Shown in pieces: positions 14,756 to 39,897 of a stretch of 42,634 bases of DNA. The translations under genes were made by a program, and so were the position numbers. The notes under the pieces are model-generated. The model had not been told where the DNA came from and ran no database searches. It saw nothing but the letters and a program-made list of their open reading frames with translations. This DNA is from Saccharomonospora saliphila YIM 90502 (GTDB lineage Bacteria; Actinomycetota; Actinomycetes; Mycobacteriales; Pseudonocardiaceae). Every line of letters begins with the position of its first letter. Position 1 is the stretch's first letter. The stretch spans positions 5,205 through 47,838 of the forward strand of contig NZ_KB912660.1 of the NCBI RefSeq assembly GCF_000383795.1, in the 5' to 3' direction.

Positions 14756-14770
14756 TGGTGTCAGCACCTT

Positions 14771-15472: not shown

Positions 15473-17271
15473 GAGCGCTCCCTTTCCAGTCGGCGACGTG
15501 CCGGGATGACGGCGGTAAGAAGCAGCACGACGATCACGATGAGCACGGTCGCGCCGCCCCAGGCCGCTTCGAGCGCCGCGGGGTCCGCCGCGTCCTGGGC
15601 GAGCGTGAACACATGGGTCGGAAGGCTGGCGACCGGCGAATCGGTCACCCCCGTGGGCAGCGCGCTCGCTCCGGCGAACACGGTCGCGGTGAACAACAGG
15701 GGAGCGGTTTCTCCCGCGGCTCGCGCGAGTCCCAGCAACAGGCCTGTGATCAGTGCGGGCCGTGCGTGTGGAATCAGTACCGACCGGACGACCTGGTTGC
15801 GCCGGAGGCCGAGCGCCTGCGCTGTCTCCCTCCGGCCGACCGGCAGGGCCGCCAGTTGTGTCGCCACCACCAAGGCCACGACCGGAACGGCCACGATCGC
15901 GAGCAGGACCGCGCCGGCGAGCCAGCTCTTCGCCCACCCCAACATCGAACTGAAGAACCAGTACCCCGCGAGACCGAGAACGATGGTGGGAAGGCCGCCG
16001 AGCGTCACGGTCGTGACGCGAAGCCACCGGTCGGCCCGCGGCGTCGCGAACTCGCCGATCAGAAGGCCCAGGACGAGCCCGAGGAACGCCGCGATGACAC
16101 CGGCCGTTCCGACCAGCAGAAGGGTGCCGATGATCTGGTTGCGCACACCACCGCCGCTCGCTCCGACCGCGGAGGTGAGCCAGAACGCGGGATCGAAGGC
16201 GTGGAGGCCCCGGCTCGCGATCGCCGCGCCGATCCCGACCGCGAGCAGGATCGGCACCGCCAGCAGCACGCGCAGCGTCAGGACGCTCCCGCGGTCTCGG
16301 AGGAATCGGAACGACGACGCGCTCGATCGCCGTCGGCGGGTGCCGCCCGGCCGATTCAGGACCCGTGACTGGGCGATCATCGTGAGCCCGGCGACGAGGC
16401 ACAGCAGCAGCGCACCGAGTGCGCACAGCGCCGCCCAGTGGGGTCCAGCGGTGCCGGCGAGCATTGGTTCCGGACCGCCGAGTTTCGTCGTGATCGTCTG
16501 CCCCGGCCGGAGCAGGGAGTCCAGGAAGGACCCCGGGCCTGTGACCTGGCCGTCAGCGCGTCCGATGACGAGGAAGATGGCGATCGTCTCGCCGAGGGCG
16601 CGCGCCAAACCGAGGACGCCGGCGGCCAGCATCCCGCCGCGTGCCAGCGGTAGGACGGCGGACCGGATCACTTCGATCCGGGTGAGTCCCAGTGCCGCCG
16701 CGTTCTCGCGGACATCCCTCGGAACGTCGGCCAGCGCGTCGACCGAGACCGAGACGACCGTGGGGATGACCATCACACCGAGCAGGATTCCCGCGGCCAG
16801 AAGACTGTCGCCTCCCGGAACACCGAACAGATCCTGGATGAACGGCCGGAGCAGGGTGACGCCCAGCAGGCCGTACACGATCGACGGGACGGCGGCCAGC
16901 ACCTCGACACCGGTGCGCAGCACCCGCCGCCATCGGGCGGGTGTCAGTTCGTGCAGCGCCACAGCGGCCGACCAGCCGACCGGCAGTGCCACTGCCAGTG
17001 CGAGTACGCCGACCACCGCCGTGCCCCACACCATCGACAACGCCCCGAACACACCGTGGCGCGGGCTCCACGTCGACTCGGTGATCAAAAGCCACCAGTC
17101 GACCGGGCCGGAGGACACGCCGAGCACGATGAAACCGACGGGCAGGAGCACGGCGGCGCCGAGGGCGGCAGCCCCGACGCCGACGGTCACGGACACCCAC
17201 CGCGCTCGTTTCGGGCGCGAACGGGCACGGCCGGATTCGGCGCGGCCCGTGCCGAGGCTGGTCACCGTCAC
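15469..17271 (-). CDS. pstCA: Fused PstC-PstA phosphate-type ABC permease
   Basis: This 600-aa membrane protein is normally two genes. The N-terminal half is PstC-like (EAA loop ENAAALGLTRIEVIRSAV near 188) and the C-terminal half PstA-like (ETAQALGLRRNQVVRSVL near 476), each with about six helices, joined by an Arg-rich linker near 305-320. It forms the channel for phosphate-type oxyanions. The GTG start overlaps the pstS stop, and its own stop overlaps the pstB start. Fusion of both permease pairs in the same operon (see phnE) is striking and suggests the operon evolved as a compact unit. Confidence 0.9.
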   Translation of the reverse strand: MTVTSLGTGRAESGRARSRPKRARWVSVTVGVGAAALGAAVLLPVGFIVLGVSSGPVDWWLLITESTWSPRHGVFGALSMVWGTAVVGVLALAVALPVGWSAAVALHELTPARWRRVLRTGVEVLAAVPSIVYGLLGVTLLRPFIQDLFGVPGGDSLLAAGILLGVMVIPTVVSVSVDALADVPRDVRENAAALGLTRIEVIRSAVLPLARGGMLAAGVLGLARALGETIAIFLVIGRADGQVTGPGSFLDSLLRPGQTITTKLGGPEPMLAGTAGPHWAALCALGALLLCLVAGLTMIAQSRVLNRPGGTRRRRSSASSFRFLRDRGSVLTLRVLLAVPILLAVGIGAAIASRGLHAFDPAFWLTSAVGASGGGVRNQIIGTLLLVGTAGVIAAFLGLVLGLLIGEFATPRADRWLRVTTVTLGGLPTIVLGLAGYWFFSSMLGWAKSWLAGAVLLAIVAVPVVALVVATQLAALPVGRRETAQALGLRRNQVVRSVLIPHARPALITGLLLGLARAAGETAPLLFTATVFAGASALPTGVTDSPVASLPTHVFTLAQDAADPAALEAAWGGATVLIVIVVLLLTAVIPARRRLERERS

Positions 17272-18185
17272 TGTGCTTCCAGCTTCGCCAACTCGACGTA
17301 GCCGTGCTGGGACACCAGACGCTGCCCCTCCGCCGACCGGGCGAAATCGATGAGGGTGCGGGCGTCTCCTTGCGGGGTACCATCGGTGATGAGAAGGAGC
17401 GGTCGGGACAGGGGATATTCGCCGGAGCGAAGATCCTCCCCTTCGGGAAGCATGCCTTCGACCGCGACGATGGCCAGTTCGGGTTGGTCCTCCGCGAAAG
17501 CGACCGACAAGGGAGCGACCGAACCGGGCGTGGTGGAGAGCTTCGTCCGGGTCTCCTCGTTTCCGCCCACGATCGAGTAATTCCCGCCCACCGGGTCCGG
17601 TGGGGCTTCCTTGTCACTTCCGTACAGGAACTTGTCGAGGACCTCCCGCGTTCCCCGCCCCGGTTCCTTGTTGTAGACGTAAACCGGAAGGTCCGGCCCG
17701 CCCACTTCGCTCCAATTCGCGATCTCGCCCTCGAAGATCCGCCGCGCCTGCTCGCGCGTCAGCGACCGCACACCGGCCTCGTAGACGTCATGCCGTATGA
17801 CGATGGCGACGGCGTCCCGGCCGACCTCCGTTTCGACGAAGTCGATGTTCGAGAAGCGGTCGCGGTCCTCGTCGTCGATGGGTTTGGAACTCATGGCCAC
17901 ATCGATCTGACCGCTGGCGAGTTGGGCGATGCCGCCCGCCGACCCACCTTGGGTGTCCACGGTGATCTCCAAGCCACGTTGCCGCAGGACTTTCGCTGCG
18001 TCCGACACCACCGGATTGACCGTGGTCGAACCGCTGACCCGGAGGGCTTCGTCCTCTGCCGCGCACCCGGCAGAGGAGGCCGCAACGGCCAACGTCGATA
18101 CCACGGCAGCCATGCGCAGCGCCGTCCTGCGAGAACGCGACTGAGAGCGGGCGAGGAAACGTCGGTTCGGGCCAGGTCTGTACAC
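17268..18185 (-). CDS. pstS: PstS-like phosphate-binding lipoprotein
   Basis: This 305-aa binding protein has a long basic N-terminus, a hydrophobic signal and a lipobox (AASSAGC, Cys41). Conserved PstS segments include VSGSTTVNPVVS near the mature start, QGGSAGGIAQLASGQIDVAMSS, and PGRGTREVLDKF. These loops bind tetrahedral oxyanions. It is the first gene of the six-gene import operon. The GTG start has CTGGAG five bases upstream, and its promoter should lie in 18186-18304, although no clear boxes are visible. PstS proteins bind phosphate and, less well, arsenate; which one is preferred here cannot be read from the sequence. Confidence 0.9.
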   Translation of the reverse strand: MYRPGPNRRFLARSQSRSRRTALRMAAVVSTLAVAASSAGCAAEDEALRVSGSTTVNPVVSDAAKVLRQRGLEITVDTQGGSAGGIAQLASGQIDVAMSSKPIDDEDRDRFSNIDFVETEVGRDAVAIVIRHDVYEAGVRSLTREQARRIFEGEIANWSEVGGPDLPVYVYNKEPGRGTREVLDKFLYGSDKEAPPDPVGGNYSIVGGNEETRTKLSTTPGSVAPLSVAFAEDQPELAIVAVEGMLPEGEDLRSGEYPLSRPLLLITDGTPQGDARTLIDFARSAEGQRLVSQHGYVELAKLEAQ

Positions 18186-18304: not shown

Positions 18305-19408
18305 TTACCCCAGTGCTGTGGTGAACCGTTCATTGATGGCTTGAGGGGAATGGGTGTCCGTCGCGCGTGGTGGTATCGACCCGTTGCGCCGCGCCGTCGG
18401 TACCAACAGCAGGTGGGGACCGGGCGAGTTCCGCGCGGCGTCGAACCGTGACCGCAGCCGGCCCATGCTGTCGCACCGGAATGCCGTCCGGTACCCTGTC
18501 GCCAGGGCGACTTCTTCGATTCGGGTGCCGCTCGACGTCGTGCGCTGGCCACCGGTCGACTCGTGAATGCCGTTGTCCAGCACGATGTGCACGAGGTTCT
18601 CCGGTCCGTGGTCCCCGATCGCGGAAAGTGTGCCCATGTGCATCAGCACGGCTCCGTCCCCATCGAGAGCCACGACCGTCTGGGACGGCCGTCCCAGAGC
18701 GACGCCGAGTGCGAGCGCAGCGGCGTGCCCCATTGATCCCTGCATGTAGAAATTGCGGGGGCGGTCGTCGATGCCGAACAGCTCCCGCCCGGTGTAGCCG
18801 GTGGTGGCGATGATCGGGTCACCGGCGGCGAGATCCGACACCAGCCGAACGACGTCGGCACTGTCGAGCCGCAATTGCTCGGTCTCGTCCACGACGGTGT
18901 GTGCCTTTCCGACGGCTCCCTTCTCGACGAGGACGAAGGGTGCCTGGCCGGCCGCGAGTGCTGCTTCGGCGTCCCGGAGGATACCGGTGAAGTGGTCGGC
19001 GTCGGCGTCGGCGCGGAGTATCCAGTGTGGAAGGCCAAGCATGTCCAGCATGGGCTCGGTCACGCGCCCCATCACCTCGTGCTGCGGTTCGTCGTCCTCG
19101 GGATTCGGCCATCCCCGCAGGCTGACGAAGGTCAGCACCGGGATGTGGTAGGTCATCACGAGCGAGGTGAGCGGGTTGACCAGGTTGCCCAGTCCGGAGT
19201 TCTGCAGCATGACGTAGCCACGGCCACCCGACAGCGCAACGCCCGCCGCGGTGGCGAGAGCCGCTCCCTCGTTGGCGGCGGGGACGTACTTGCCCGGCGT
19301 CCGGCTGAGCAACGCGATCGGGCCGCCGAAGAAGGAGCACGGCACCCCGCTGGCGACGGTGAAGCCGCGTTCCTCCAGTTCGTCGCAAAACAACTCCGCT
19401 GAAATCAC
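18305..19408 (-). CDS. Phosphonopyruvate decarboxylase homologue (candidate arsonopyruvate decarboxylase)
   Basis: This 367-aa ThDP enzyme carries the pyrimidine- and diphosphate-binding halves in one chain. The catalytic Glu is E47 (NEGAA). The ThDP/Mg motif runs from GDG (250-252) to N279 (LDNGIHESTGGQ), the latter almost identical to the phosphonopyruvate decarboxylase signature. The family converts phosphonopyruvate to phosphonoacetaldehyde, pulling an unfavourable mutase equilibrium forward. No PEP mutase is encoded in the window, so the arsenic analogue arsonopyruvate is the likelier substrate. GTG 19408 has GGAGG seven bases upstream. It ends the seven-gene biosynthetic operon. Confidence 0.88.
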   Translation of the reverse strand: MISAELFCDELEERGFTVASGVPCSFFGGPIALLSRTPGKYVPAANEGAALATAAGVALSGGRGYVMLQNSGLGNLVNPLTSLVMTYHIPVLTFVSLRGWPNPEDDEPQHEVMGRVTEPMLDMLGLPHWILRADADADHFTGILRDAEAALAAGQAPFVLVEKGAVGKAHTVVDETEQLRLDSADVVRLVSDLAAGDPIIATTGYTGRELFGIDDRPRNFYMQGSMGHAAALALGVALGRPSQTVVALDGDGAVLMHMGTLSAIGDHGPENLVHIVLDNGIHESTGGQRTTSSGTRIEEVALATGYRTAFRCDSMGRLRSRFDAARNSPGPHLLLVPTARRNGSIPPRATDTHSPQAINERFTTALG

Positions 19409-19525
19409 AGACGTGCCTCCGGGTGCGGGAACTCCCGCGTGTGGTGACCTGAAAGAAGAGGTGCCGGTGTGACTGGTGCTGTATGTCCTGATTCGCCCAG
19501 GACCGCGGGCGCCACCGCGCTTACC

Positions 19526-20653
19526 TCAGCGCGAGCGCACGGTGTCAGCGGTAACCCGGACCCTCTGCGGTTCCCGCGCGGAGGACACCGGGTCCGTGCT
19601 GCCGTGTGCTCGATCCTGAGGGTATTCCGCCCAAGCAGGGCAGTGCTCGATCCGGACGACGATGATCGTGATGGTCGTGCCGCCACCGTGCCCGACCATG
19701 AGCACGTGGTCTCCCGGCCCTACCTGTCCGGTCTCCATCAGGTGTTGCACGCCCAAGATCTGGTCGTTGACCGTGAGGTGCCCCCAGCCGTGTCCGAAGT
19801 CGCCCAGCCCCTTGCGCGGGTCGATGCCGATGGGGTCGAGTATCATTTTCAGATAGGCTTCTCTGGCCGTGAACACGTGTGTCACCCGAGTGACGTCCTC
19901 CGGTCCGATTCCGGCTTCGGCGAGCGTGGCCAGCGCCGTCTCGGCACGCAGTTCGCCCTGCCGGTTGACCATCCACTCGACCGCGGCGTCCTCTCCGACC
20001 GACGACATCCGCTCCCGGAAATCGATCTGCGTGCGGTTGTCCACCGAAGTCGGCACCAACGGCTCGTCACCCCGATAGAGGTGTTCGAGGTCCGAGGTGG
20101 ACACCGTCTTGATGGCCAGCAGTCGCGCGAAGCCCTCGTCCTTGGACAGCAGCACGGCCGTGGCACCGTCGCCGAGGACACCGTTCTGCAGGCCGAACGA
20201 CCATCGGTTGAAGTCGGGGGTGCCGAGGTTGTCCGCTCCCGTGAGCAGCGCCTCCGACCGTTCGGGCACGGCCATCAGGTAGGAGGCAGCCAGCTCCATC
20301 CCGCTCATGACCCCGTTGCACGCCTGCCAGACCAGGTACGACGGGATGTCCCGATCGGTGATGTGCCGCAGCACGTACTGGTGCGCCGACCAGCCGACCG
20401 GTCCCTGCTTCCAGCTGCCCGCGTGCATGTGCAGGTCGATATCGTGCGGCGCTCGCCCGGCGCGCTCGATCGCCTGGCGTGCGGCGAGGATCGCCATGTC
20501 GGGGGCCGACAGGTCGCCGGCCACCGTCGCTCCGGTCCACCCGTACCAGTTGTAGTCCTCGGGGTCGTAGAGCCCGAGCTCGACAGCTTGCTCGGCGCTC
20601 ATGACGTCGGGGAGGTACTTTCCCATTCCGGAGATGTAAAGAGGCGTCTTCAC
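19526..20653 (-). CDS. KAS III (FabH-like) ketosynthase or acyltransferase, atypical active site
   Basis: This 375-aa thiolase-fold protein has the active-site Cys112 in VWQACNGVMSG and the GDGATAVLL and GHGGGTT segments of KAS III enzymes. The usual HQAN box is not recognisable (THVFTAREAYLK instead) and GN(T/D) is FGHGWGHL, so Asn is replaced by His. Such altered KAS III proteins include CerJ-type acyltransferases that form esters rather than C-C bonds. It lies just after the PKS gene, so it may start the chain with an arseno-starter, or release/esterify the product. GTG 20653 has AGGAAAGG upstream. The last ~45 residues are Arg-rich and probably disordered. Confidence 0.82.
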   Translation of the reverse strand: MKTPLYISGMGKYLPDVMSAEQAVELGLYDPEDYNWYGWTGATVAGDLSAPDMAILAARQAIERAGRAPHDIDLHMHAGSWKQGPVGWSAHQYVLRHITDRDIPSYLVWQACNGVMSGMELAASYLMAVPERSEALLTGADNLGTPDFNRWSFGLQNGVLGDGATAVLLSKDEGFARLLAIKTVSTSDLEHLYRGDEPLVPTSVDNRTQIDFRERMSSVGEDAAVEWMVNRQGELRAETALATLAEAGIGPEDVTRVTHVFTAREAYLKMILDPIGIDPRKGLGDFGHGWGHLTVNDQILGVQHLMETGQVGPGDHVLMVGHGGGTTITIIVVRIEHCPAWAEYPQDRAHGSTDPVSSAREPQRVRVTADTVRSR

Positions 20654-20690
20654 GTGCTCAGCCCTTTCCTGTCATTCAGCGGCACGTCGT

Positions 20691-23600
20691 TCACGCACTC
20701 GCCACGCCATGGGGAGAGGCTGCCCGGACGTTCTCGGCCACCGTCGTGATCGATCCGTTGTTCAGGAGTTTCACGGTGGGGAGTTTGATTTGGAACTCGT
20801 GCTCGACCCGGTTGCGGAACTCCATGAACATCAGGGAGTCCATGCCCATCTTCTTCAGTGGCAACGCGGTGTTGATTCGCTCCGAGCGCATGCCCAGCAC
20901 CGCCGCCGCCAGCTCGACCAGCCTCCCCTCGACCTGATCGACCGCGGGCGTCGCGGGTGAGGCGGGTTCCGGATCGCGCCGCTCGGTGCCCGGGGGCTCG
21001 GGGGAACCCGGATTCACGGACCCTCCGGTGTCCACGGCTTCGGACTCGGCCCTGCGTGCGGACGCGGACTCGGTGGACAGGGATTCGCGGACGTTCTGGG
21101 CCACCGTCGTGATCGATCCGTTGTTCAGGAGTTTCACGGTGGGGAGTTTGATTTGGAACTCGTGCTCGACCCGGTTGCGGAACTCCATGAACATCAGGGA
21201 GTCCATGCCCATCTTCTTCAGTGGCAACGCCGCGTTGATTCGCTCCGAGCGCATGCCCAGCACCGCCGCCGCCAGCTCGACCACCGTGCGGTCGAGGTCG
21301 TCGGATGTGGAGGTTTCCTGGTGCGCGTCCGTCTCGGCCGGGGCATGGCGCTGCGTCGATCGGGCTTGATCCGGCAGTGGTGGTGTCTGGCTGTGCGAAG
21401 GACTCGCCGGACGTGCGACTCCGTTGGCTTCGGGGGAGTCCGGCCGCAGACGCACGGACTGGACGGCCGGCTCCTGTGCGGTGCTCCGCCGCGGTTCGGG
21501 GTGCCGAGGCGAGGGAGCGTCGTCGACGAGATGCCGCAAGTGCCGTGAGGCCGCGGCCACCGGGTAGGCCTGGGCCCACTTCTGCCAGTCCACGCGCAGG
21601 ACCGCGGTCTGCGTGAGGTCGGCGGCGAGGATCTCGTCGAGCACTGCCAGGCCGTCCTCAGGGCTGAAGTACTCCATGCCGCGGGGGAGGATGCTCTGGC
21701 CCTCGTCCTGTTCCTTGCGCGCCATCATGCCGACCTCGGCCCAGTATCCCCAGTCGATGGCCGTGGCGGGCCGCCCCTGGGCCGTGCGGAGGTGGGCCAA
21801 GGCGTCGAGGAAGGCGTTACCCGCGGCATAACCGCCGAGGAACGGCGAACCCAGCACCGTGGAGGCCGACGAGAACAGCACGAAGAAGTCGAGACGTTCG
21901 TCCTGGACGACTCGGTGCAACGCCCACGATCCAGAAACCTTCGCGTGCAGCAGCTCGTCGAGTCGAGTCTTCTCCAGTTCTCCGACCGGCACGTAGTCGA
22001 TGGCACCGGCCGCGTGCACCACGCCTCGCAGCGGGGGTTCACCCGCATTGTCGCGGTCTCGCAGGACGCCGCGCAGGGCGGCCTCGTCAGCGGCGTCCAT
22101 GGCGACGTACTCGACGTCGACACCGCGTCGCGCCAGATCCCGGAGCAGCTCGATCTTCGGTGCCAACGGATCACTCGCGTTGATCGTGTCCCAGCCGTCG
22201 GGAGTGGGTAGCGCGGCGCGTCCGGTCAGGATCAGATACCGGGCGCCCCTGTCGACGAGCCAGGTCGCGAGCTTTCCGCCGATGCCGCCCAGGCCGCCGG
22301 TGACCAGATACGTCGCGTCGGAGCGGACGGGGTGCTCCGATCCGATCGAGCTGCGGCCCTGTGGTTCGGAGAACGTGAGCACGACACGATCACAGGAGGC
22401 TCGCCGCGCGAGTGACGGTAGCTCCTCCGCCGTTTCCGGTGCCGGCACCTCCTGATAGTCGTGCGGTCGGAGAAGCCCCGAGTCCGCCATCGCACCGATG
22501 TCGGCGATGACCTGACCGACGCGACCGTTGTCCGCGCTGCTCGCGAGGTCCGCGTAAGGCAGGGCGACGGCTTCGGCCGGATCGATCCGCTGTGGCTGAT
22601 GTGCCACCTGGCCCGTCGGCACGGTGAGGTCACGCGTTGTCGGATGCCGTGTAACCGACAGGACCTCGTCGCCGACCGCGAAAGTCTCCACATCGCTTCC
22701 GACGGCCGACACGACCCCGGCGACTTCGTGGCTCCGCGTGTTGTCCACCGGATGGCTCAGGCCGACACGGCTCGCCCGGATCGCGATCTCGTCCGAACCG
22801 ACCTCCGGGACGTCACCGACGTCCCGAGCGCGCCGGACCAGTCTCGCGACATGAAGGCTCCCGCCACGAAGCGCCAGTTGATCTTCTTCGTCGGGATGCG
22901 AGAGCTGGTCGAGCAGGGCCTGCACGCTGGCGGCATCCTGATCGAGGTCGACGAGCACGGGCCGCAGCTCCGGACGTTCCGCCGAGATCGTGCGTCCCAG
23001 CCCCCAGAGGATGGCTTGGAAGGGAGCGGCTACCACGTCACCGGGAACGACGCGCTGGCTCGACCTGCTCACCAACCACAGCCGTGGCTTCCCGGCGATG
23101 TCGGTCTCCTCCAAGGCTTTCACGAGGCTGACCACACTGTGACCGGCGAAGGTCTGCGCGCGGCCGATCTCGGCGGGTGTGGCGTCGAGCGGCGGTTCGG
23201 CGTCGAGAGCCCACAGGTGCACCACGCCTGCCAGCGGGGTTTCGGCGGAAACCTCCGCGAGGATCGCCGCTATGTCCGTCGCCGAGCCGGGGTCGGCCCG
23301 GTAGCGGTCCGTGCTGGTCTTGCCGGATCTGGCCGCGGAGGTGACGACGATGACGCGGTGTCCGCGGTCCCGCATGCCTTGGACGAGGCCGCGTCCCGTG
23401 GGGCCGCTGTCGGTCAGCACGAGCCACGCACCATCGGCGCGGCCCCTGTCGGCCGCTGCGGCATCGGGACTCTCTCGCGGGCTCCAGACGAGCTCGTAGA
23501 ACCAGTCATCGTGCCGTCGCGAAGCGTCGTTCGCCTCGGCGGGACGGGACGCGCCGGCCGTGGAATCCGTGGTCGACTGTGAAAGGGGCGTGGTCGACTG

Positions 23601-26600
23601 TGACAAGGGCATCGGTACCTCCGCGAGCGGTCGGGGAGCGTGTCCGGCCAGGTACTGGAGGCGGAGTCCACGCAGTTCCGCGACGAGTCGGCGTTCCCCG
23701 TCGAACACGCTGATGTCGCCTTGGAAGGAGTCGTCCCGGTGGGAGCGGGTCAGGACGACGTGCGCCCACAGATCCGGGTCGGGTCTGCGGTACATGCGTG
23801 CCTGCTCGATACCGCCGAGGACGAACGCCGCGTCCTGTCCGGGCGCGACCTCGGGACGGGCGGCGGCGAGCGAGTGGGCGACGGCGTCCAGCACAGCCGG
23901 ATGGAAGTGGTGTTGATCGAAGGCCGCTCGAATCTCCGTCCGGCAACGAAGACGCACCAGCGCCTCGCCGTTGACACGGCGTACCTCCTCGATCGCCTGG
24001 AACGCCCCTTCCCACTGATTGCCGAGCTCGGCGTACCACGGGTAGAAGTCAGCCCGGGTCTGGTACTCGGAACACCGGGAGGCGATTTCGGAGAAGGATT
24101 CGTTCAACGAACGCCTGGGATCGTGTATGCCGTGTACCCGGGCATGCGCGTGCAGCGTCCATTCGTCCTCACCGGTGCGGCTGTGCAGGCGGAAGAACAG
24201 TTCCTCGTCGCGCTTTTCCAGCGTGACGCGCACGATCGTGGTTTCGTCGTCGGTGAGGAAGAGCGCCTCACGGTACCGGACGTCGGAGACGGCGATCGGG
24301 ACTTGTCCCACGATCCTGTGCGCCGCCTCGACGGCCATTTCGAGGTAGGCAGCCCCGGGCAGGATAATCGTCTGTTCGACTTTGTGGTCCCGCAAGTAGG
24401 CGTTGCGTTCGAGATCGATCGGCCCTTCCCACGACCAGACCTCCGGACCGGAGGCGGTCGGAGTCCCGAGCAGGGGATGGTCGGGTGATTCCGGCGTTGC
24501 CGGGTGTTCTTCGGTCTCGCCGACCACCGGCGTTGTCTCGATCCAGTAGGAGTCCCGTTGCCAGGGATAGTGCGGTAGGTCGACGAAACGGCCACCGTCG
24601 GCGACCGTCTCCCAGCCGATCGGTACGGCTTCGCAGTAGAGCCGTGCCAGCGAGGCGAGCATCGTCTCCCGCTCCGGTTCCTCCCGGCGAAGCGAGCCGA
24701 TGGCCACACTGTCACCGCCCTCCGCCGCCGTCGCCTCGATCGCGTTGACCAACACCGGATGCGGGCTGATCTCGACGAACACCGTTCTGCCCGAGGCGAG
24801 TTCGCCCTGTACGGCACCGACGAAGTTCACAGGCTCGCGAATATTGCGCGCCCAGTAGTTCGCGTCGACCTGCGAGCCGTCGATCGACTCGTTGAGCAAC
24901 GTCGAGTGGATCGGGATGCCGCCCGGCCGAGGACGAATCCCGGCGAGTGCGCTGATCAGATCCTCGCGAATGTCGTCGATCTGCGGACCATGCGAGGCGA
25001 AGTCCACGTTGATCCAGCGGTTGAAGACGTCTTGCTCGTCCAGCGTGGCGAGGATCTGTGAGAGGGCCCGGGATGCGCCGGAGAGGAGTGTGGAGGTCGG
25101 GCTGTTCGCCGCGGCGATGGACACCTCGTGCTCGTGTCCCCGGATCGCCTCGGCCGCGGCCGAGGCCGAGAGCTCTACCCACGCCATCGTTCCCTGGCCG
25201 CTCAGGCGTTTGGCGATCCTGCTGCGCCGGCAGATCACCGCCCCGGCGTCGGCGAGGCTGAGCGCGCCCGCGACGAAGCTGGCCGCGGCTTCGCCCATGC
25301 TGTGCCCCAGGACGACATCAGGCTCGATGCCCCAGGACCGCCATACGGCGGCGAGGGCGACTTCCATCGCCCAGAGCGTGGGTTGGATGACGTCGAGGTC
25401 GGCGAGTCTGTCGGCCTCCCCGTGCTGGAGCAACTCGAGGACTGACCAGCCGGCCTCCGCTCTGATCACCTCGTCGCACTCGAGTATGGCCGCACGGAAG
25501 ACCGGCTCGGTGTCGAGCAGTTCTCGGCCCATGCCCACCCATTGCGAGCCCTGCCCGGGGAAGACGAACGCGATCCGCGGCCGTTCCTCGTCCACGAAGT
25601 CGGTATGTGCCAGCCCGGGGGTTTCTCCCTCGGCCGCGAAGTCGCTCAACGCGGTCGCGGCGTCCCGCGTCGAGTTCGTCGCGATCGCCAGGCGGCTGGG
25701 GTGATGCTGCCTGCGGACCGCCGCGCTATAGCAAATGTCGCGCCAGATCGCGGGTTCGTCCGGCGTTCGCCGGAGGAAGTCGGCGTAGCGGCCTGCCAGG
25801 TCCCGGAGCGCTTCCGGTGTCGTCGCGGACAGCGGCAGCAACTGGCCCTGATGCGGTATCGCAGTGGGATGGTCTTCCGTGGCCACCGGGGAATCGGCTG
25901 CGGCGAGGACGACGTGCGCGTTCACCCCGGTCAGTCCGAAGCTACTGACACCGGCAAGCCACGGTCGTGTCCGGTCGGGAAGCGTGGTCCGAGTATGGGG
26001 CAGGTGGAACGGAAGTTGGTCCCACGGGATCGCCGTGTTGGGCTCTTCCTGGTGGAGATTGGGCGGAACCTCGCCCTGTTGCAGGCACAGGACGCTCTTG
26101 ATGAGGCCCGCCAGCCCCGCGGCACCTTCGGTGTGGCCGATGTTGGTCTTCACCGAACCGAGGAGGCAACCGTTTCCAGCGGGCCGCCCGGCGCCGAGCA
26201 CCGCGCCCAGAGCCTGGAGCTCCACCGCGTCGCCCACCGCGGTTCCGGTTCCATGGGCTTCGACGTAGTCGACCTCGGCAGGGTCGATCGCGGCCTGCTG
26301 ATAGGCGCGTGCGAGCACGTCCTGCTGCCCCTCTGCGCTGGGGGTGACCAGGTACCCGTTGCTCCGCCCGTCGCTGCCCACGGCGCTGCCCATGATCACC
26401 GCACGGACCCGGTCTCCGTCGGCTCTGGCGCGCGACAGTGGCTTGAGGACGACGGTTCCGATCCCGTCACTGCGGACGAATCCGTCCGCCCTCGCATCAC
26501 CGAACTTGCACCGTCCGTCGTCGGCGAGCATGCCCGCACCCGAGTACACGGTGCCCTCTTCGGGCAACAGGACCATGTTGACCGCACCCGCGATGGCCAT

Positions 26601-27227
26601 CTGGCACTCACCGGCACGAATCGCTTGCGCGGCCAGGTGTACCGCGGTCAACGACGAGGAGCAGGCGGTATCCACTGTGAGTGTCGGACCACGGAGATCG
26701 AAGCTGAACGCCAGCCGTCCCGAGGTCATGGCTCGGGCGGCCGCGCCGATGAGTCCGTAGAACTCCAAGGCCTCCCGGTTCTGGTACTGCAAGTGCCAGT
26801 ACTCGCCGCCCTGCTGACCGACGAACACGCCGGTGTCCGATCCCGCTATGCGATCGATCGGCATGCCCGCGTCTTCGAGGGCCTCGTAGGCGACCTCAAG
26901 GAGCAGGCGCTGCTGTGGGTCGATGCGTCCCGCTTCCCGCGGAGAGATGCCGAAGAACGTAGCGTCGAACTCGTCGACCCTCTCCAGGAAGCCGCCCCAT
27001 CGGCTGCTGGTGCGGCCGGGTGAGGACGGCGCGGGCTCGAAGATCGCGTCGACGTCGTAACGGTCCTTCGGGATCTCGGTGATCGCGTCGGTTCCCGAAC
27101 ACAGCATGCTCCAGAACGATTCGACGTTCGGTGCTCCGGGGAAACGGCCGGCCATCCCGATGATGGCGATGGGCTCGGTGCTGGTCTGGATGTGTGGAGT
27201 CGCCGTGCTTGTCGCGTTCGTCCGCAT
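20691..27227 (-). CDS. Type I polyketide synthase, KS-AT-DH-(ER remnant)-KR-ACP-ACP
   Basis: This 2178-aa single-module PKS is probably iterative. KS (~15-445): C189 (DTACSSS), H325, H365. AT (~553-830): S643 in GHSMGEAAA, with VDFASH at 741-746; extender choice is unclear. DH (~915-1195): H948 (HKVEQTIILP, Gln for the usual Gly), D1114 with H1118. A MDR-like stretch at ~1475-1615 keeps the N-terminal (HEVAGVVSAVG) and C-terminal parts of an enoylreductase but lacks the NADPH-binding core, so ER should be dead. KR (~1635-1885): GGLGGIGG, catalytic SSAS and GGYAAGN, so active. Two ACPs carry Ser2009 and Ser2130 (GMDSLMFMEF). There is no thioesterase. The product should be a reduced, unsaturated chain. 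The ATG at 27227 has AAGGGA upstream. Confidence 0.93.
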   Translation of the reverse strand: MRTNATSTATPHIQTSTEPIAIIGMAGRFPGAPNVESFWSMLCSGTDAITEIPKDRYDVDAIFEPAPSSPGRTSSRWGGFLERVDEFDATFFGISPREAGRIDPQQRLLLEVAYEALEDAGMPIDRIAGSDTGVFVGQQGGEYWHLQYQNREALEFYGLIGAAARAMTSGRLAFSFDLRGPTLTVDTACSSSLTAVHLAAQAIRAGECQMAIAGAVNMVLLPEEGTVYSGAGMLADDGRCKFGDARADGFVRSDGIGTVVLKPLSRARADGDRVRAVIMGSAVGSDGRSNGYLVTPSAEGQQDVLARAYQQAAIDPAEVDYVEAHGTGTAVGDAVELQALGAVLGAGRPAGNGCLLGSVKTNIGHTEGAAGLAGLIKSVLCLQQGEVPPNLHQEEPNTAIPWDQLPFHLPHTRTTLPDRTRPWLAGVSSFGLTGVNAHVVLAAADSPVATEDHPTAIPHQGQLLPLSATTPEALRDLAGRYADFLRRTPDEPAIWRDICYSAAVRRQHHPSRLAIATNSTRDAATALSDFAAEGETPGLAHTDFVDEERPRIAFVFPGQGSQWVGMGRELLDTEPVFRAAILECDEVIRAEAGWSVLELLQHGEADRLADLDVIQPTLWAMEVALAAVWRSWGIEPDVVLGHSMGEAAASFVAGALSLADAGAVICRRSRIAKRLSGQGTMAWVELSASAAAEAIRGHEHEVSIAAANSPTSTLLSGASRALSQILATLDEQDVFNRWINVDFASHGPQIDDIREDLISALAGIRPRPGGIPIHSTLLNESIDGSQVDANYWARNIREPVNFVGAVQGELASGRTVFVEISPHPVLVNAIEATAAEGGDSVAIGSLRREEPERETMLASLARLYCEAVPIGWETVADGGRFVDLPHYPWQRDSYWIETTPVVGETEEHPATPESPDHPLLGTPTASGPEVWSWEGPIDLERNAYLRDHKVEQTIILPGAAYLEMAVEAAHRIVGQVPIAVSDVRYREALFLTDDETTIVRVTLEKRDEELFFRLHSRTGEDEWTLHAHARVHGIHDPRRSLNESFSEIASRCSEYQTRADFYPWYAELGNQWEGAFQAIEEVRRVNGEALVRLRCRTEIRAAFDQHHFHPAVLDAVAHSLAAARPEVAPGQDAAFVLGGIEQARMYRRPDPDLWAHVVLTRSHRDDSFQGDISVFDGERRLVAELRGLRLQYLAGHAPRPLAEVPMPLSQSTTPLSQSTTDSTAGASRPAEANDASRRHDDWFYELVWSPRESPDAAAADRGRADGAWLVLTDSGPTGRGLVQGMRDRGHRVIVVTSAARSGKTSTDRYRADPGSATDIAAILAEVSAETPLAGVVHLWALDAEPPLDATPAEIGRAQTFAGHSVVSLVKALEETDIAGKPRLWLVSRSSQRVVPGDVVAAPFQAILWGLGRTISAERPELRPVLVDLDQDAASVQALLDQLSHPDEEDQLALRGGSLHVARLVRRARDVGDVPEVGSDEIAIRASRVGLSHPVDNTRSHEVAGVVSAVGSDVETFAVGDEVLSVTRHPTTRDLTVPTGQVAHQPQRIDPAEAVALPYADLASSADNGRVGQVIADIGAMADSGLLRPHDYQEVPAPETAEELPSLARRASCDRVVLTFSEPQGRSSIGSEHPVRSDATYLVTGGLGGIGGKLATWLVDRGARYLILTGRAALPTPDGWDTINASDPLAPKIELLRDLARRGVDVEYVAMDAADEAALRGVLRDRDNAGEPPLRGVVHAAGAIDYVPVGELEKTRLDELLHAKVSGSWALHRVVQDERLDFFVLFSSASTVLGSPFLGGYAAGNAFLDALAHLRTAQGRPATAIDWGYWAEVGMMARKEQDEGQSILPRGMEYFSPEDGLAVLDEILAADLTQTAVLRVDWQKWAQAYPVAAASRHLRHLVDDAPSPRHPEPRRSTAQEPAVQSVRLRPDSPEANGVARPASPSHSQTPPLPDQARSTQRHAPAETDAHQETSTSDDLDRTVVELAAAVLGMRSERINAALPLKKMGMDSLMFMEFRNRVEHEFQIKLPTVKLLNNGSITTVAQNVRESLSTESASARRAESEAVDTGGSVNPGSPEPPGTERRDPEPASPATPAVDQVEGRLVELAAAVLGMRSERINTALPLKKMGMDSLMFMEFRNRVEHEFQIKLPTVKLLNNGSITTVAENVRAASPHGVASA
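20725..20920. repeat. ACP2-coding direct repeat (copy A)
   Basis: These 196 bp match 21088-21283 with only three differences (98% identity). The copy encodes the second ACP domain. Confidence 0.93.
21088..21283. repeat. ACP1-coding direct repeat (copy B)
   Basis: This is the partner of 20725-20920, three mismatches in 196 bp. The linker between the copies is not repeated. Even synonymous positions agree, pointing to recent duplication or gene conversion. Confidence 0.93.
23569..23610. repeat. Tandem 21-bp repeat in the DH-KR linker
   Basis: Two adjacent 21-bp units differ at a few bases and encode the doubled heptapeptide PLSQSTT in a flexible Ser/Thr linker of the PKS (~residues 1206-1219). 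It has little functional weight. Confidence 0.8.
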
Positions 27228-27240
27228 GGTTCGAAGTCCC

Positions 27241-28824
27241 TTACTTCCTGGCGGTCACAGACGACGACGTCTGAATGCCGCGCTCGTCGAGAGCGTCGAA
27301 GAGCGAAGGCTCGGACATCGCGTCCGGCCGGGGGAGTCCGAGAAGGTCGAGAATCGTCGGCGCGATCGAGGGCAATCTCGGCCGGCCACCCCGGAGTATC
27401 CGGCGCGGTGTGGTGTCGGATGCCGGGACCAGCACGCACGGGACCTGGTTGGTGGTGTGGCCTCCGTAGGGTTGGCGCGTCCCGTCATCCATGGTCCGGG
27501 ACATCTGCTCACCGTTGCCGTGATCTCCGACGAGCAGGACCCAGCGGCCCGACTCACGAGATTCCGAGCAGATGTGCCGCACCGCACGGTCCACAGCCTC
27601 CGTGGCGCGCACCGTCGCCTCGTGGTCTCCGGTGTGGCCGACGACGTCGATGTTGGCGAGATTGGCGACGACCAACGCCACGTCGTCACGTGCGGCGGCT
27701 TTCCCGACCCGATCCGCGATACCGGCGATGTTCATCTCCGGATGCACCGTGTAGTCGGTGGATACGTTCGGCACGGCCACGTGCTCTTCCACGGTGCGCC
27801 GGCGCGCGTCGCGTCCGTTGAGGAAGAAGGTGACGTGCTCGAACTTCTCGTGCTCGGCGATGCGCACCGAGCGCGCACCGCTGTCCTCCAGCGCGTCCGC
27901 CAAGCCGCCCGATGCGTCGGCCCGGGATACGAGCGCGGGCATGGCCACGCGTGTGTCGTACTGGGTGAGGCCGACAAGCCGAACTCCGCCGCGCCCGCTC
28001 ACCGAGAGACTGTCCGCCACCGTGTCGACCAGCGGTGCGGTCCGGTCGCTGCGGAAGTTCGCGAACAGGATCACGTCGCCGTCGCGCACCCCGGGGTACG
28101 GCCGAGCTTCCCCGTCGATCAGCGTGGGTGGCAGCCAGGCGTCACCGACGTCGGCACCGTCAGCGGCGGCGACCGCATCGGTCGTGGTTCGGTGACCGTG
28201 CGCGTCGACAAGGAGGCGGCATGCGGCCGCCGTCAGTTCGGCGTCGCCGCTCTTGTCCATCGCGTAGTTCCGGCCGATCACGGTGGCGTACCGGCCAACA
28301 CCGACGGAGGCCGCCGCCCGCTCCCAGCGAGTCAGGTAGGTCGCGGCGGTTCCGTCAGCGACATCGCGTCCGTCGGTGATGGCATGGAGCCACACCTGGG
28401 TGAGCCCAGCGTCCGCCGCGGCACGAAGCAGTTCCACGGAGTGATCGAGGTCGGAATGGATCCGTCCGTCCGAGCACAGGCCCACCAGATGCAGCGCACG
28501 ACGGTGCCTACGGAGCTCTTCACAGAGCTCCCGCAACACGGGGTCGGCGCGCAGTTCTCCGGACTCGACGCGCTGCTGGACCAGGAGGCTGTCGTAGGTC
28601 AACGGCCGCCCAGCACCCATCGCCAGGTGACCGATCTCCGAGTTGCCGACCACACCGTCGGGGAGCCCGACCGCTGACCCGGAGGCATCCAGCAGGGTCG
28701 TCGGGCAGCGACGCAGCAGATCGTCGAGGACCGGCGTGTCGGCTTCGGCGATGGCGTTGTCCCGTTCTGGTGGTGCGTGGCCCCAGCCGTCGAGGATCAG
28801 CAGCACCCCACCACGCCGGGTCAT
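27241..28824 (-). CDS. Phosphoglycerate-mutase (iPGM) homologue, candidate arsenopyruvate mutase
   Basis: This 527-aa protein is of the 2,3-bisphosphoglycerate-independent mutase / alkaline phosphatase superfamily. All expected metal and catalytic residues are kept: D12 (LDGWG), nucleophile S62 (GNSEIGH), [11 protein letters not shown]151-[22 protein letters not shown], and [12 protein letters not shown] with GGHTT near the end. It could isomerise phosphoglycerate, yet it sits in an operon with AroA and a phosphonopyruvate-decarboxylase homologue. In the Streptomyces arseno-organic cluster the corresponding protein was proposed to rearrange arsenoenolpyruvate to arsonopyruvate. iPGM-like genes also occur in phosphinothricin clusters. 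ATG 28824 overlaps the aroA-like stop (ATGA). Confidence 0.87.
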
Positions 28825-30143
28825 AGGTTCGTCCCGCGAAGGCCGCTGAGCCGCTGCCAGAAGGTCGGGAAAGATTTGCGGACGCAGCCCGGATCACGGA
28901 TGACGACCCCCGGCGTGCGGAGTCCGGCGATCGCGAATGCCATGGCGATGCGGTGATCGTCGTAGGTGTCGATCACGGCGCCTTGCGGACGTCGCCCTCC
29001 GTGGACGGTGAGGGTGTCCGCCGTCGTTTCGACGTCGACACCCATCTTGGCCAGTTCGGTGCTGACGGCCTCGATTCGGTCGCATTCCTTGAATCGGAGG
29101 TTTCCGATCCCGGTGATGTGGGTGCGGCCCTGAGCATAGGCCGCGACGACCGCGAGCGTCGGAACGACGTCGGGCATGTTGGACATGTCGATGTCGATTC
29201 CGCCGAGTGTGCCGCCGCCGTGCACCGTGATGCTGTCGTCGTCGATATCGGCTCGACATCCCATCGAGACCAGCGCATCGACCAGCCCGATGTCGCCCTG
29301 TGCGGAATCGCCGCTGATACCGGGAATGCGCACGCGACCTTCTGTGATCGCTGCCGCGGCGAGGAAGTACGACATCCCGGACGCGTCCGGCTCGATGGTG
29401 ATGTCGCCGCCACGGTAGCCCTGCCCGGACTTCACGGAGAAGTGCTCGTATCCGCGACGCGTGACTTCGACGCCCGCGCGGTCCATCGCGGCGATGGTCA
29501 TGTCGACGTACGGTTTCGACAGCAGGTCGTCGAGCAGGGTGATGTCGACATCCTGCTTGGCATAGGGAGCGCTGAGCAGCAGGCTCGTGGTGAACTGGCT
29601 GCTGACGTTGCCGTGGATCGCCGTGGTGCCGCCGACGAGGTGAGGCCCTTCGACCTTCACGGGCGGAGATCCGTTGTCGCGGAGCGCGACCGCTCGAACC
29701 CCGAGTGGCGCCAACGCTTCCAGGAGATGGCCCATGGGACGCTCCCGCATGCGTTCGTTGCCCGTCAGGATCGTCGTCCCCTTGGCGAGTCCCGCCATGG
29801 TGATGAGGAGCCGGATCGGCGTTCCGGCGTTTCCCATGTCGATCTCGCTCTGGGGCGCGCACATCTCGTTCCCGTTGGGCGTGACCACGATGGTGTTCTT
29901 CTGCTCGTCGAGCTCGACCTCGACGTGTCCGAACATCCGCAGCGCTTTCGCGAGGAGCACGGTGTCCTGCGAGTGCAGCGCGTTGCGTAGGGTCGTCGGT
30001 TCACCGCACAGGCCGGCGATGGCCAGGAATCTGTTGGTGTAGCTCTTCGAGCCGAGGACCTCGACCGTGGCGTCGACGGTGTCCAGCGGGGTGATGGCCA
30101 CCTCGGACATGCTGAGGACCTGCTGTTCGTCGGCAGTCGTCAT
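28821..30143 (-). CDS. EPSP-synthase (AroA) homologue, candidate arsenoenolpyruvate synthase
   Basis: This 440-aa enolpyruvyl transferase has GSKSYTNR (31-38), [23 protein letters not shown] (181-184), [26 protein letters not shown] (348-356) and [17 protein letters not shown]-binding Lys/Arg/Glu residues are all present. So are the positions that in AroA hold shikimate-3-phosphate (Ser/Arg of GSKSxTNR, SSQ, Asp325, Asn348, Lys352), so normal AroA activity cannot be excluded. Cys354 replaces the usual Ser/Thr of KE(S/T)DR, and Leu precedes GSKS instead of Pro. ATG 30143 has AAGGGA upstream; the open frame extends further but without an RBS. Context suggests transfer of enolpyruvate to arsenate. 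A second chromosomal aroA would be expected. Confidence 0.88.
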
Positions 30144-30225: not shown

Positions 30226-30690
30226 TCAGTCCTGCCTCGCTTCGTCGACCTGGGCTCCCAGCCACACCTCCCGGAACGCCCGCAGCGAGCACATGAGGTA
30301 GTGCTCACTCGTGGAGTAGGTTTCGACTTCGCCGCTGAGGAACCGAAGTCGCGAGGGCGAGCTCAGTTCCAGGTGGTCCAGTGGTGCGAAGCTTCGTGTC
30401 GTGTCCTTTCGATTGGCGACGCACAGCACGTGCACGTCTCCACGTTCGCTGGTGCGTTTGACCGCCGACAGTCCCTCGCCGATGTCGAACGCGACAGCCG
30501 TCGAACCCGGACCGAACGCGGTGGCGAACACGAGATTCGTTCCCCGGCAGGGCTCGTCCGAGGCCGAGCCGGACATCGGGAACTCGCTTTTGAGAGCGCG
30601 TTCCAGGCGCGCTGTGACCCGTGTGGTAGGGGAATTCCCGGCGTCGGTAAGGACGCGATCGTCATCGTCTCGCGGACGACTGTCCTTCAT
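30226..30690 (-). CDS. Unknown 154-aa protein in the biosynthetic operon
   Basis: I do not recognise this protein. The first ~45 residues are charged and probably disordered (PRDDDDRV). The rest looks like a compact alpha/beta domain: strands around [29 protein letters not shown] and RLRFLSG, ending in a helix ([16 protein letters not shown]). There are three Cys, none in a metal-binding pair. No signal peptide or membrane segment is seen. Its ATG overlaps the stop of the GATase-like gene (ATGA) and the aroA-like gene follows 82 bp later, so it is co-expressed with the C-As enzymes. A role as partner or missing catalyst of that pathway is inference. Confidence 0.72.
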
Positions 30691-31439
30691 CGCAGCTCCT
30701 CGCGTTTCGTCGATGTGGGGTGGTTCTCGACGCGCGGGGTGTTCGCAGCGCTGCTGACCACGTCGAGAAACGCCTGGAGAACCGGATGTAGGGAGTCCGG
30801 TGTGCTGGACAATTCGGGTTGGAAGAGACAGCCGACGAAAAACGGGTGGTCGTCGATCTCGGCAGCGCGGGGGGAGCCGGTGGGCTCCCAGGCGGAGAAG
30901 CGAACGTCGCCCCGTGCCGCGGCGTTCATGAACTCTTCGACGATGCCGTTCTGGCACTGCAGGAGCTCGTCGACCTCGACCGCGCCGCCGTAGATTCCGG
31001 ACAGGTGCGAACCTGGCCGCAGCCTGAGGCGTACCCGGTGCTCGGTGTTGGTCGAGCACGTGCTGGGCAGGATCAGGTGCTCGATCGGGGTGAGGTCGTC
31101 CGCGAGTTCGGCGACCTCGGGCAGCCGCAGCACGTTCTGCGCATACTCGAGGACCGCGCTGAAGAATCCACCGCACGTGCCGAGGAACGGAATGTGTGCC
31201 GTCCGGGCGAACCGGATCGCTCGGTGCACTCCTTGTTGTGCGCGGTACGGCCCTCCGGGCACGACCCAGATCCCGTGGAAGGGTGTGAAGTCAGTGTGGT
31301 CGGTGATCTCGGTCGTCGGTACCCACTCAGCGTCGAATCCCAGCTCGGGCATGAGCCTTTCGATGTGGGGGTGCGCAGGCTCGTCGTGGTTGTACTGGTC
31401 GCCGACCAGTGCCACCCGGGGTCTCGCCGGAGTAGACAC
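30687..31439 (-). CDS. CTP-synthase C-terminal (class I GATase)-like protein, stand-alone
   Basis: This 250-aa protein matches only the glutamine-amidotransferase half of CTP synthase. PGGPYRAQQG and the nucleophile elbow with C89 (FLGTCGGFFSAV) are kept. The site normally holding catalytic His-Pro-Glu reads LFQPEL: Gln207 replaces the His while Glu209 remains. The classical glutaminase triad is therefore broken, and the synthetase half is absent. A CTP-synthase-related gene is also part of the Streptomyces arseno-organic cluster. GTG 31439 is chosen because GGGAGGA lies five bases upstream; the longer frame to 31544 starts in leader DNA. It is the first gene of the seven-gene operon. Function is unknown; a thiol-dependent step on an activated arsenical is one guess. 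Confidence 0.83.
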   Translation of the reverse strand: MSTPARPRVALVGDQYNHDEPAHPHIERLMPELGFDAEWVPTTEITDHTDFTPFHGIWVVPGGPYRAQQGVHRAIRFARTAHIPFLGTCGGFFSAVLEYAQNVLRLPEVAELADDLTPIEHLILPSTCSTNTEHRVRLRLRPGSHLSGIYGGAVEVDELLQCQNGIVEEFMNAAARGDVRFSAWEPTGSPRAAEIDDHPFFVGCLFQPELSSTPDSLHPVLQAFLDVVSSAANTPRVENHPTSTKREELR

Positions 31440-32144
31440 GAAATCCTCCCACAGTAGAATGTCCCCAGCAGAGTTGTGCGCGAGCGTCGAGGAAACTGTC
31501 AATGCCGACAGGGTCGAACGGGACCGACCGAAGGTCTCGTTCATGGCCGCCGCCGGGTCTGCTCGAGTCTGGGGACCACATTAGGGGCGAGTGCGGGCGC
31601 GGCAACCCCTATCATCACCCCTACGCCGAGGTCGACGGACCCCGATCATGGCTCAAGGGGAGGACGGGGCACGTGCCGGTCCGGAACTCGCACGGACGTA
31701 ATGCACATGGTGGAATCGGGCGGCGCCTCGACGGCGTATTCACCCTGATCGGCGGGCGGTGAAGGTACGCGACGAGCCGACCCCATTACTCCGCCCGGAG
31801 TAGCCGTCGCTGCGAATCACGAAAGCGAACCCGCGTGTGAGCTTTCGTCCGGTCCTCTACTGTCGTGTGGTATAGATCACAGACGATGTGATGTGGGCTC
31901 GGCACGATGACGCGCTGTCATCATAGCGTCCCCAAAGGGCCGATTGTGCGACGCAGTTTGAGTGTCATTCAATAGGGTGATGGCTTGAGCACGCTGCGTG
32001 AACACACGGAGGTGGTTGCGTGGCTGGGGCGAACGCCGTACACGGGCGGTGCCGTGCGCCGCTACACGGCGAAAAGGGCATCGGACCTATTCGTGGCCAA
32101 GAGCGAGAAAACGGATTGACAGCTCTGCCTTTTGGGGGAATTTC
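31440..32144. promoter_or_regulatory. Divergent control region between biosynthetic operon and LAL regulator
   Basis: No gene is seen in these 705 bp. On the minus strand TTGACA at 31502-31497 could be the -35 box of the biosynthetic operon (with a weak CACAAC 18 bp on). Three copies of TAGGGG/CCCCTA lie within 31579-31625 (CATTAGGGG, ACCCCTAT, ACCCCTAC). A TATAGAT is at ~31872. Together these look like a regulator-controlled divergent promoter. Binding of the LAL protein here is inference. Confidence 0.5.
31958..31972. promoter_or_regulatory. Near-palindrome TTGAGTG-T-CATTCAA
   Basis: Six of seven arm positions pair around a central T, in AT-richer DNA ~170 bp before the LAL gene. TTGA/TCAA arms are seen in some ArsR-family operators. 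This is a weak candidate operator. Confidence 0.3.
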
Positions 32145-39870: not shown

Positions 39871-39897
39871 AGGCGTGGCTTGTGGTTCAATGAGAGC

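Follow-up and report, generated by a model that had tools for sequence, protein, structure and literature searches.

A probable bisenarsan-type arsenic gene cluster with a PhnW-like aminotransferase in Saccharomonospora saliphila

The Core Genes

A stretch of 42,634 nucleotides of Saccharomonospora saliphila YIM 90502 (NZ_KB912660.1, positions 5,205 to 47,838; the window) carries what is probably a bisenarsan-type (bsn) arsenic gene cluster with altered tailoring. This stretch belongs to contig 73 of a 4.03-Mb draft assembly with a completeness of 83.7%. Three genes of the minus strand represent the core of this cluster: a BsnM-type homologue of the 5-enolpyruvylshikimate-3-phosphate (EPSP) synthase (28821..30143), a BsnN-type homologue of the cofactor-independent phosphoglycerate mutase (iPGM; 27241..28824), and a BsnJ-type homologue of the phosphonopyruvate decarboxylase (18305..19408). 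All three exceed the cut-offs of their families (TIGR01356, 431.9 bits against 287.25; TIGR01307, 408.4 against 330.65; and TIGR03297, 368.8 against 312.5, respectively), the decarboxylase being a further gene expected in a cluster of the bsnMN type. The ATG at 30143, the start given in the sequence-only reading, fits the EPSP synthase homologue, and yields 440 residues within an open reading frame (ORF) of 28821-30308.

That reading had also assigned the three genes to a single operon, and their families and common strand are confirmed here, although they are not contiguous. Between the mutase and decarboxylase genes are a polyketide synthase (PKS) of 2178 residues (20691..27227) and a gene of the ketosynthase III (KS-III) type (19526..20653), all on the same strand. 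In the order of transcription, the synthase homologue, the mutase homologue, the PKS, the KS-III-like gene, and the decarboxylase are separated by an overlap of 4 nt, followed by gaps of 13, 37, and 117 nt.

Homologous genes have been studied in Streptomyces lividans. In a review (PMC12159101), BsnM is proposed to transfer the pyruvate moiety from EPSP onto arsenate, the phosphoglycerate mutase BsnN to form the carbon–arsenic (C–As) bond of arsonopyruvate, and BsnJ to convert this product to arsonoacetaldehyde, which would lead, in turn, to 2-hydroxyethylarsonic acid (2-HEA) and its ester with a polyketide, bisenarsan. These three core steps rest on gene disruptions, in which bsnM, bsnN, and bsnJ were each required, and synthetic 2-HEA restored the production of bisenarsan (PMC12159101). 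The same review describes bsnMN as widespread, in variable surroundings, and the bsn cluster as free of enzymes dependent on S-adenosylmethionine (SAM). The sequence-only reading had arrived at this route, in which enolpyruvyl transfer, a mutase, and a thiamine diphosphate (ThDP) decarboxylase act without the fold of the phosphoenolpyruvate (PEP) mutase. Its core idea matches the route already proposed for bisenarsan (PMC12159101), and is thus a rediscovery rather than a novelty.

Diagnostic Residues of the Two Families

The EPSP synthase homologues were compared with one row per locus and a minimum length of 330 residues, and no row was reported as dropped. In a quick tree, in which the program flagged long branches among the non-BsnM rows, the BsnM side is formed by 34 rows and a second copy from genome G376 (35), with a support of 100 in the SH-like approximate likelihood ratio test (SH-aLRT). 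This branch stands apart from additional AroA copies encoded in G786, G483, G849, G890, and G983. The second copy of G376 (L153), grouped at first with the other sequences, is counted here as a BsnM; the 63 other rows of the residue comparison include Escherichia coli.

All 35 BsnM rows (E. coli numbering) retain K22, S23, R27, G96, T97, R124, S169, S170, and Q171, together with S197, Y200, D313, K340, E341, R344, R386, and K411, and the variable positions are N94 (Asn in 11 of the 35) and N336 (Asn in 12). The branch is marked by A98P (34/35 rows vs. 0/63 of the others), L173T (35/35 vs. 0/63), and a methionine at position 82 (35/35 vs. 1/63). The conserved positions are presumably the contacts that bind shikimate-3-phosphate (S3P) and PEP. 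The retention of the presumed S3P contacts in every row favors EPSP or S3P as the partner of the enzyme. The donor assumed in the sequence-only reading, PEP, is thus less likely than EPSP, which is also the donor proposed in the review (PMC12159101).

The BsnN comparison covered 43 distinct rows, none of them more than 98.5% identical to another, with the loci L123 and L124 excluded (Bacillus iPGM numbering). The residues D12, S62, H123, R153, D154, R185, R261, R264, and K336 are found in all 43 rows, as are D403, H407, D444, H445, and H462. These residues are taken here to include the serine nucleophile and the ligands of the metals, and the mutase of the window has the serine and both metal sites of a canonical iPGM. 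It departs from the canonical form in the MDRDxRWxR motif, having lost R191, R194, W195, and R197. In all 43 rows, R191 is replaced by lysine, K193 by glycine, and W195 by other residues, with R194 being left in six rows, and R197 in one. The substitutions P262S, T442V, A443G, T460G, and A461G are also fixed in the family. All eight canonical iPGMs carry R191, R194, W195, R197, A443, and T460, whereas K193, P262, and T442 are less diagnostic, since they vary among these eight proteins, one of which has Ser262. This pattern suggests that the machinery of phosphoryl transfer is intact, and that the nearby loop has been rebuilt. The statement of the sequence-only reading that the catalytic residues are intact is thus valid for the EPSP synthase homologue and, in the mutase, for the serine and the ligands of the metals, the exceptions being its four residues R191, R194, W195, and R197.

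The two excluded loci, L123 and L124, lie in the stretches L159 and L160 (G1012:C5 and G1071:C1), and represent distant iPGM homologues of Streptomyces, with 36–40% identity. Both retain R191, with R264 replaced by glycine, and no match to BsnM was found within their 20-kb stretches.

Distribution and Gene Pairing

When named genomes were scanned with the EPSP synthase homologue, the best 80 loci were retained, and more exist. In 23 of these loci (L004-L026, all from actinobacteria), the identity reaches 56–68%, and does not exceed 49% in the other 57. A BsnN gene adjoins BsnM in all 23 loci, and the two genes are also adjacent in all 10 genomes in which regions were compared, these genomes having been chosen for the presence of BsnN. 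In the flanks of the 23 loci (up to 10 kb, E ≤1e-10), there are matches to the phosphonopyruvate decarboxylase in 15, the CTP-synthase-like protein in 16, PstS in 14, the molybdoenzyme in 12, KS-III in nine, ArsP in nine, ArsI in five, and PhnD in four. In G376, some 67 kb separate the first bsnMN pair from the second BsnM (69% identity; L165, G376:C1:6038000-6057999, at approximately 10036-14417), which is accompanied by PstS and PstCA homologues, with no match to BsnN.

At E ≤1e-30, BsnN homologues were found in four of the 394 genomes sampled from the class and in six of the 390 from the family, the genome of the window being included in both samples. The family sample also takes in Kutzneria sp. 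744 (L010) and Pseudonocardiaceae bacterium YIM PH 21723 (L011), which were matched by their equal BsnN coordinates. The homologue was found in 22 of 295 genomes of a Streptomyces sample, two of them being the distant iPGMs with no BsnM match nearby, and in none of the 11 other genomes listed for the genus Saccharomonospora, which indicates a patchy distribution of the cluster.

The pairing, the branch, and the residues place the adjacent genes of the window in the bsn clade. The alternative that they are redundant genes of the shikimate pathway and glycolysis, found by chance within a PKS cluster, draws on the fact that both proteins pass housekeeping equivalog cut-offs, and on the contents of the incomplete genome, in which BsnM is the sole protein to attain the AroA cut-off and a second complete AroA was not found. 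Contig 115 ends in a 61-bit piece of AroA, possibly the truncated housekeeping gene. By contrast, further AroA copies exceed the cut-off in all six genomes searched, as does a cofactor-dependent phosphoglycerate mutase (dPGM) in all seven, including that of the window. Together with the separate branch, the constant pairing of BsnM with BsnN, and the altered MDRDxRWxR motif, these copies make the housekeeping alternative highly improbable, and it was rejected.

The Polyketide Synthase and the PhnW-like Aminotransferase

The PKS and its KS-III-like partner (PF08541/PF08545) are also typical of a cluster of the bsnMN type. Two Streptomyces genomes with the same core genes, G849 and G870, stand in here for the bsn sequences, their equality with bsn being assumed. 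According to the Pfam domains and a comparison of the enoylreductase (ER), the PKS of the window is a reducing synthase with ketosynthase, acyltransferase, dehydratase, ER remnant, ketoreductase, and two acyl carrier protein domains. The FASH segment of its acyltransferase is the same as that of G849. The ER segment is complete in G849 and G870, appears degenerate by eye in G890, G483, and G983, and has lost its NADPH-binding half in both the window and G786, so the chain would be expected to be less saturated than that of bisenarsan. In this respect the window departs from a bisenarsan-type cluster, in which a mostly saturated chain would call for a complete ER. The KS-III-like protein is a candidate acyl transferase for the release of this chain.

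On the plus strand, a class V aminotransferase similar to PhnW and AepZ (36107..37228) begins at a TTG codon, 16 nt past the stop of the preceding gene, in an ORF open to 35924, with a molybdoenzyme gene 53 nt further on. The gene is thus embedded between cluster genes of one strand. The lysine that binds pyridoxal phosphate (PLP) is present in a SANK motif, in an alignment with 9kk8, which is, together with 6pd1, the nearest solved structure; the methionine found at this position in 9kka is taken as a made mutant. The best models are those of the PhnW and AepZ families, but their cut-offs are missed (TIGR03301, 311.7 bits in the window and 331.8 bits in G786, against 360.8), which implies that the substrate may differ.

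Both the gene and the cluster are retained in the complete genome G786, from another genus of the same family, and the cluster has the same gene order there between the molybdoenzyme and the methyltransferase. The identity between the window and G786 is 73% for the PhnW-like protein, 84% for KS-III, 80% for the molybdoenzyme, and 78% for the protein of the mycothiol isomerase family. In other genomes, no protein exceeded 36% identity among the 22 searched (the genome of L016 lying outside this search), and of 13 searched further, only G786 exceeded 34%. No match was found at 1e-8 in the 40-kb regions of G890, G983, G905, G849, G870, and G876, or in the flanks of the 23 BsnM-type loci (≤10 kb, E ≤1e-10), or, at 1e-3, in a plasmid cluster of Streptomyces (L166). 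The aminotransferase, common to one other genus, and the PKS that lacks the NADPH half of its ER appear to be the new features of this cluster.

The presence of this gene raises two readings, which have the core route in common and differ only in the final branch. In the first, the product is an ordinary congener of bisenarsan, arsonoacetaldehyde being reduced by an unlinked reductase to 2-hydroxyethylarsonate for esterification, and the PhnW-like protein acts on the side, either in catabolism or on another substrate. This is possible, if somewhat doubtful. The core genes, like KS-III and the PKS, correspond to those of bsn, the PhnW cut-off is missed, and the sister clusters of G890, G483, and G983 have no PhnW match. 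The position of the gene within the cluster, its 73% identity and conserved cluster order in G786, the class V lysine, and the best models all argue against a side role, as does the lack of an aldehyde or alcohol dehydrogenase gene among the scanned proteins of the window.

In the second reading, which is tentative but quite possible, arsonoacetaldehyde would be transaminated to 2-aminoethylarsonate, and then N-acylated with a more unsaturated chain. Enzymes of the PhnW type are said to be capable of acting on 2-aminoethylarsonate, in work attributed to Lacoste et al. 1992. The comparison with related clusters does not show that PhnW replaces a reductase encoded in them; no clear aldehyde reductase was found among the seven stretches scanned (five from G890 and two from G983). 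These stretches encode an FAD/NAD-type flavoprotein, two hydrolases of the beta-lactamase fold, a cutinase-like protein, a major facilitator superfamily (MFS) protein, a CTP-synthase-like gene, and one ORF of no family.

Resistance, Transport, and Regulation: Arsenic or Phosphorus

The presence of ArsI and ArsP near the core, noted in the sequence-only reading, is borne out by the family models. On the left side of the cluster, on the plus strand, an ArsI/CadI-type C–As lyase domain is fused to an AlkZ-like DNA glycosylase domain (3885..5363; NF041414, 172.4 bits, cut-off 116; PF06224, 237.9 bits), and is followed by an ArsP-type permease (5545..6477; PF03773, 161.3 bits, cut-off 32.3), an MFS exporter (7009..8622; PF07690), a SAM-dependent methyltransferase (8685..10139; PF08242), and an acyl-CoA-dehydrogenase-like flavoprotein (10142..11299; PF00441/PF02771/PF02770). 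The ArsI-AlkZ fusion of the window lies in a single frame, and ArsI-matched clusters elsewhere align over the first 124–130 residues only. The methyltransferase resembles, by eye, the methylation domains of PKS and nonribosomal peptide synthetases, and ArsM is absent among its 10 NCBIfam matches. A small ORF after ArsP (6493-6960, plus strand) contains a CCGGG stretch and matched no Pfam family, and a transposase with an integrase core and an IS481-type zipper match is located close to the left-hand edge of the cluster (1293-2294, minus strand).

On the minus strand, the decarboxylase gene is followed by two transport systems. The first is composed of a PstS-like binding protein (17268..18185; TIGR02136, 157.1 bits, below the cut-off of 206.6), which is a candidate for the uptake of arsenate or phosphate, a fused PstC-PstA permease (15469..17271; TIGR02138, 286.2 bits, and TIGR00974, 266.5 bits, both above cut-off), and a PstB-like ATPase (14771..15472, the end of an ORF of 14771-16426, its start estimated by homology; TIGR00972, 157.3 bits, below 343.2). 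The second includes a PhnD-like phosphonate-type binding protein (13856..14767; TIGR01098, 208.0 bits, cut-off 112.05), a PhnC ATPase (13014..13790, start estimated by homology; TIGR02315, 282.8 bits, cut-off 266.1), and a fused double PhnE permease (11305..13017; TIGR01097, 431.1 bits, cut-off 216.7). The minus-strand series opens, ahead of the EPSP synthase homologue, with a glutaminase-domain protein similar to the C-terminus of CTP synthase (30687..31544; PF00117; NF004836, 193.9 bits, below 260).

The right side, on the plus strand, begins with a large ATP-binding LuxR-type (LAL) regulator (31998..35075; AAA_16 and GerE), followed by a mycothiol-dependent isomerase/DinB-family protein (35278..36090; TIGR03083, 75.6 bits, cut-off 50), the PhnW-like aminotransferase, a molybdopterin oxidoreductase (37282..39822; PF00384/PF01568/PF04879), and an ArsR-family regulator (39862..40284; PF01022, 51.6 bits). 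The oxidoreductase has, by eye, a twin-arginine-like leader and a CxxCxxxC motif, and none of the 25 NCBIfam models listed for it attains its cut-off; its substrate is perhaps arsenite.

A bsnMN pair is also found on the linear plasmid NZ_CP109189.1 of Streptomyces sp. NBC_01708 (L166), within a 41-kb arsenic island annotated with ArsC, ACR3, ArsO, six ArsR/SmtB regulators, and Pst-type and molybdoenzyme genes. No match at 1e-3 to the phosphonopyruvate decarboxylase, KS-III, PKS, or PhnW was found in this stretch, which suggests that other bsnMN loci may use arsonopyruvate differently. A thioredoxin system is also encoded in the island, as is a PLP aminotransferase that differs from that of the window. 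Among other plasmid records, NZ_OL790696.1, a 4.8-Mb record of Escherichia coli listed as a plasmid, is probably a chromosome.

The phosphonate families of the cluster (the decarboxylase, PhnW, and PhnCDE) allow for a further alternative, in which the iPGM-like enzyme replaces the PEP mutase in a carbon–phosphorus pathway that runs through phosphonopyruvate and phosphonoacetaldehyde to a lipidated 2-aminoethylphosphonate. The EPSP synthase normally works with PEP and phosphate, which would agree with this pathway. No PEP mutase (TIGR02320) exceeded its cut-off in either the incomplete genome of the window or G786, in a search with no positive control, given that none of 14 control genomes yielded a protein above the cut-off. 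The presence of ArsI, ArsP, and ArsR in the cluster, of ArsC, ACR3, and ArsO close to the plasmid bsnMN pair, and of arsenic in the product of the homologous cluster, according to PMC12159101, renders a phosphorus pathway improbable. The arsenic genes of the window and the plasmid, together with the published results, speak for arsenic.

Proposed Pathway

It is very likely that the core C–As route, from arsenate to a C–As compound, operates in this cluster. Arsenate would enter through the Pst-type system, or the molybdoenzyme would first oxidize arsenite in the extracellular space. An enolpyruvyl group would then be transferred from EPSP onto arsenate by the BsnM-like enzyme, with arsenoenolpyruvate and S3P as the products. 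As a mutase recruited to a new function, with one serine and two metals, the BsnN-like enzyme would move the arsenic from oxygen to carbon to form arsonopyruvate. The BsnJ-like ThDP enzyme would then produce arsonoacetaldehyde, which the PhnW-like aminotransferase may trap as 2-aminoethylarsonate, to be acylated by the PKS and the KS-III protein. The ArsP, MFS, and ArsI proteins may be responsible for export and self-protection, and the ArsR and LAL proteins for regulation. Each of these enzymatic steps, as well as the arsenite oxidation, the uptake roles of the Pst and Phn systems, the transamination branch, and the chain, is predicted from sequence.

The sequence-only reading did not take into account the genes that decide what the product is, namely those of the PKS, the KS-III-like protein, the transport systems, and the PhnW-like aminotransferase. 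The extra aminotransferase may give a new amine-bearing arsenic product, and it is conceivable, if short of probable, that an N-acylated 2-aminoethylarsonate is formed in this lineage, as an arsenic analogue of ciliatine, a phosphonate. No natural product of aminoethylarsonate was found among the listed titles and abstract openings of the openly licensed literature, although the subscription literature may hold one. Apart from the review, the papers listed included one on arsinothricin, some on phosphonates, and some with a passing mention of bisenarsan or the 2016 study.

A number of observations weigh against the overall explanation as a bsn-type cluster with altered tailoring. The methyltransferase at 8685-10139 departs from the SAM-free bsn cluster, and the PhnCDE genes are named for phosphonates. 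The missed PhnW cut-off and the possible difference in substrate, the lack of a clear reductase in the scanned stretches of G890 and G983, the BsnM protein as the only one above the AroA cut-off in its incomplete genome, and the PEP mutase search that lacked a positive control all belong to the same side.

If N-acylated 2-aminoethylarsonate is indeed the product, an entire aminophosphonate pathway would have been rebuilt for arsenic, with a different C–pnictogen enzyme at its head, a mutase of the alkaline phosphatase superfamily. The locus also provides an independent and divergent set of sequences for testing the route, with diagnostic residues (the MDRDxRWxR change of BsnN and the A98P of BsnM), and points to conjugates of aminoethylarsonate.

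Comparison with Known Systems

The closest system is the bsn cluster of bisenarsan in S. lividans and S. coelicolor (Cruz-Morales 2016; Hoshino 2023; both as cited in PMC12159101). The genes common to the window and bsn are those similar to the EPSP synthase, phosphoglycerate mutase, and phosphonopyruvate decarboxylase, in addition to the PKS and the genes of arsenic regulation and resistance, and the second PKS gene of bsn, BsnFB, is likened here to the PKS partner of the window. Unlike bsn, the window has the PhnW-like aminotransferase, PhnCDE, the methyltransferase, the acyl-CoA-dehydrogenase-like gene, and the ArsI-AlkZ fusion, and its PKS has no ER cofactor half.

The pathways of arsinothricin and the arsenosugars also involve the formation of C–As bonds in bacteria, but by means of SAM-dependent or radical-SAM enzymes, as described in PMC12159101. 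No radical-SAM family was found among the family matches of the scanned window proteins. The SAM-independent formation of the C–As bond is one of the few ways proposed for bacterial organoarsenicals, and its enzymology is still a proposal (PMC12159101).

The PEP mutase pathways (PepM-Ppd-PhnW/AepZ) follow the same logic of a mutase, a decarboxylase, and a transaminase, leading to an aminoethyl pnictogen acid. In the window, by contrast, the C–pnictogen step would be based on an unrelated fold, and on arsenic.

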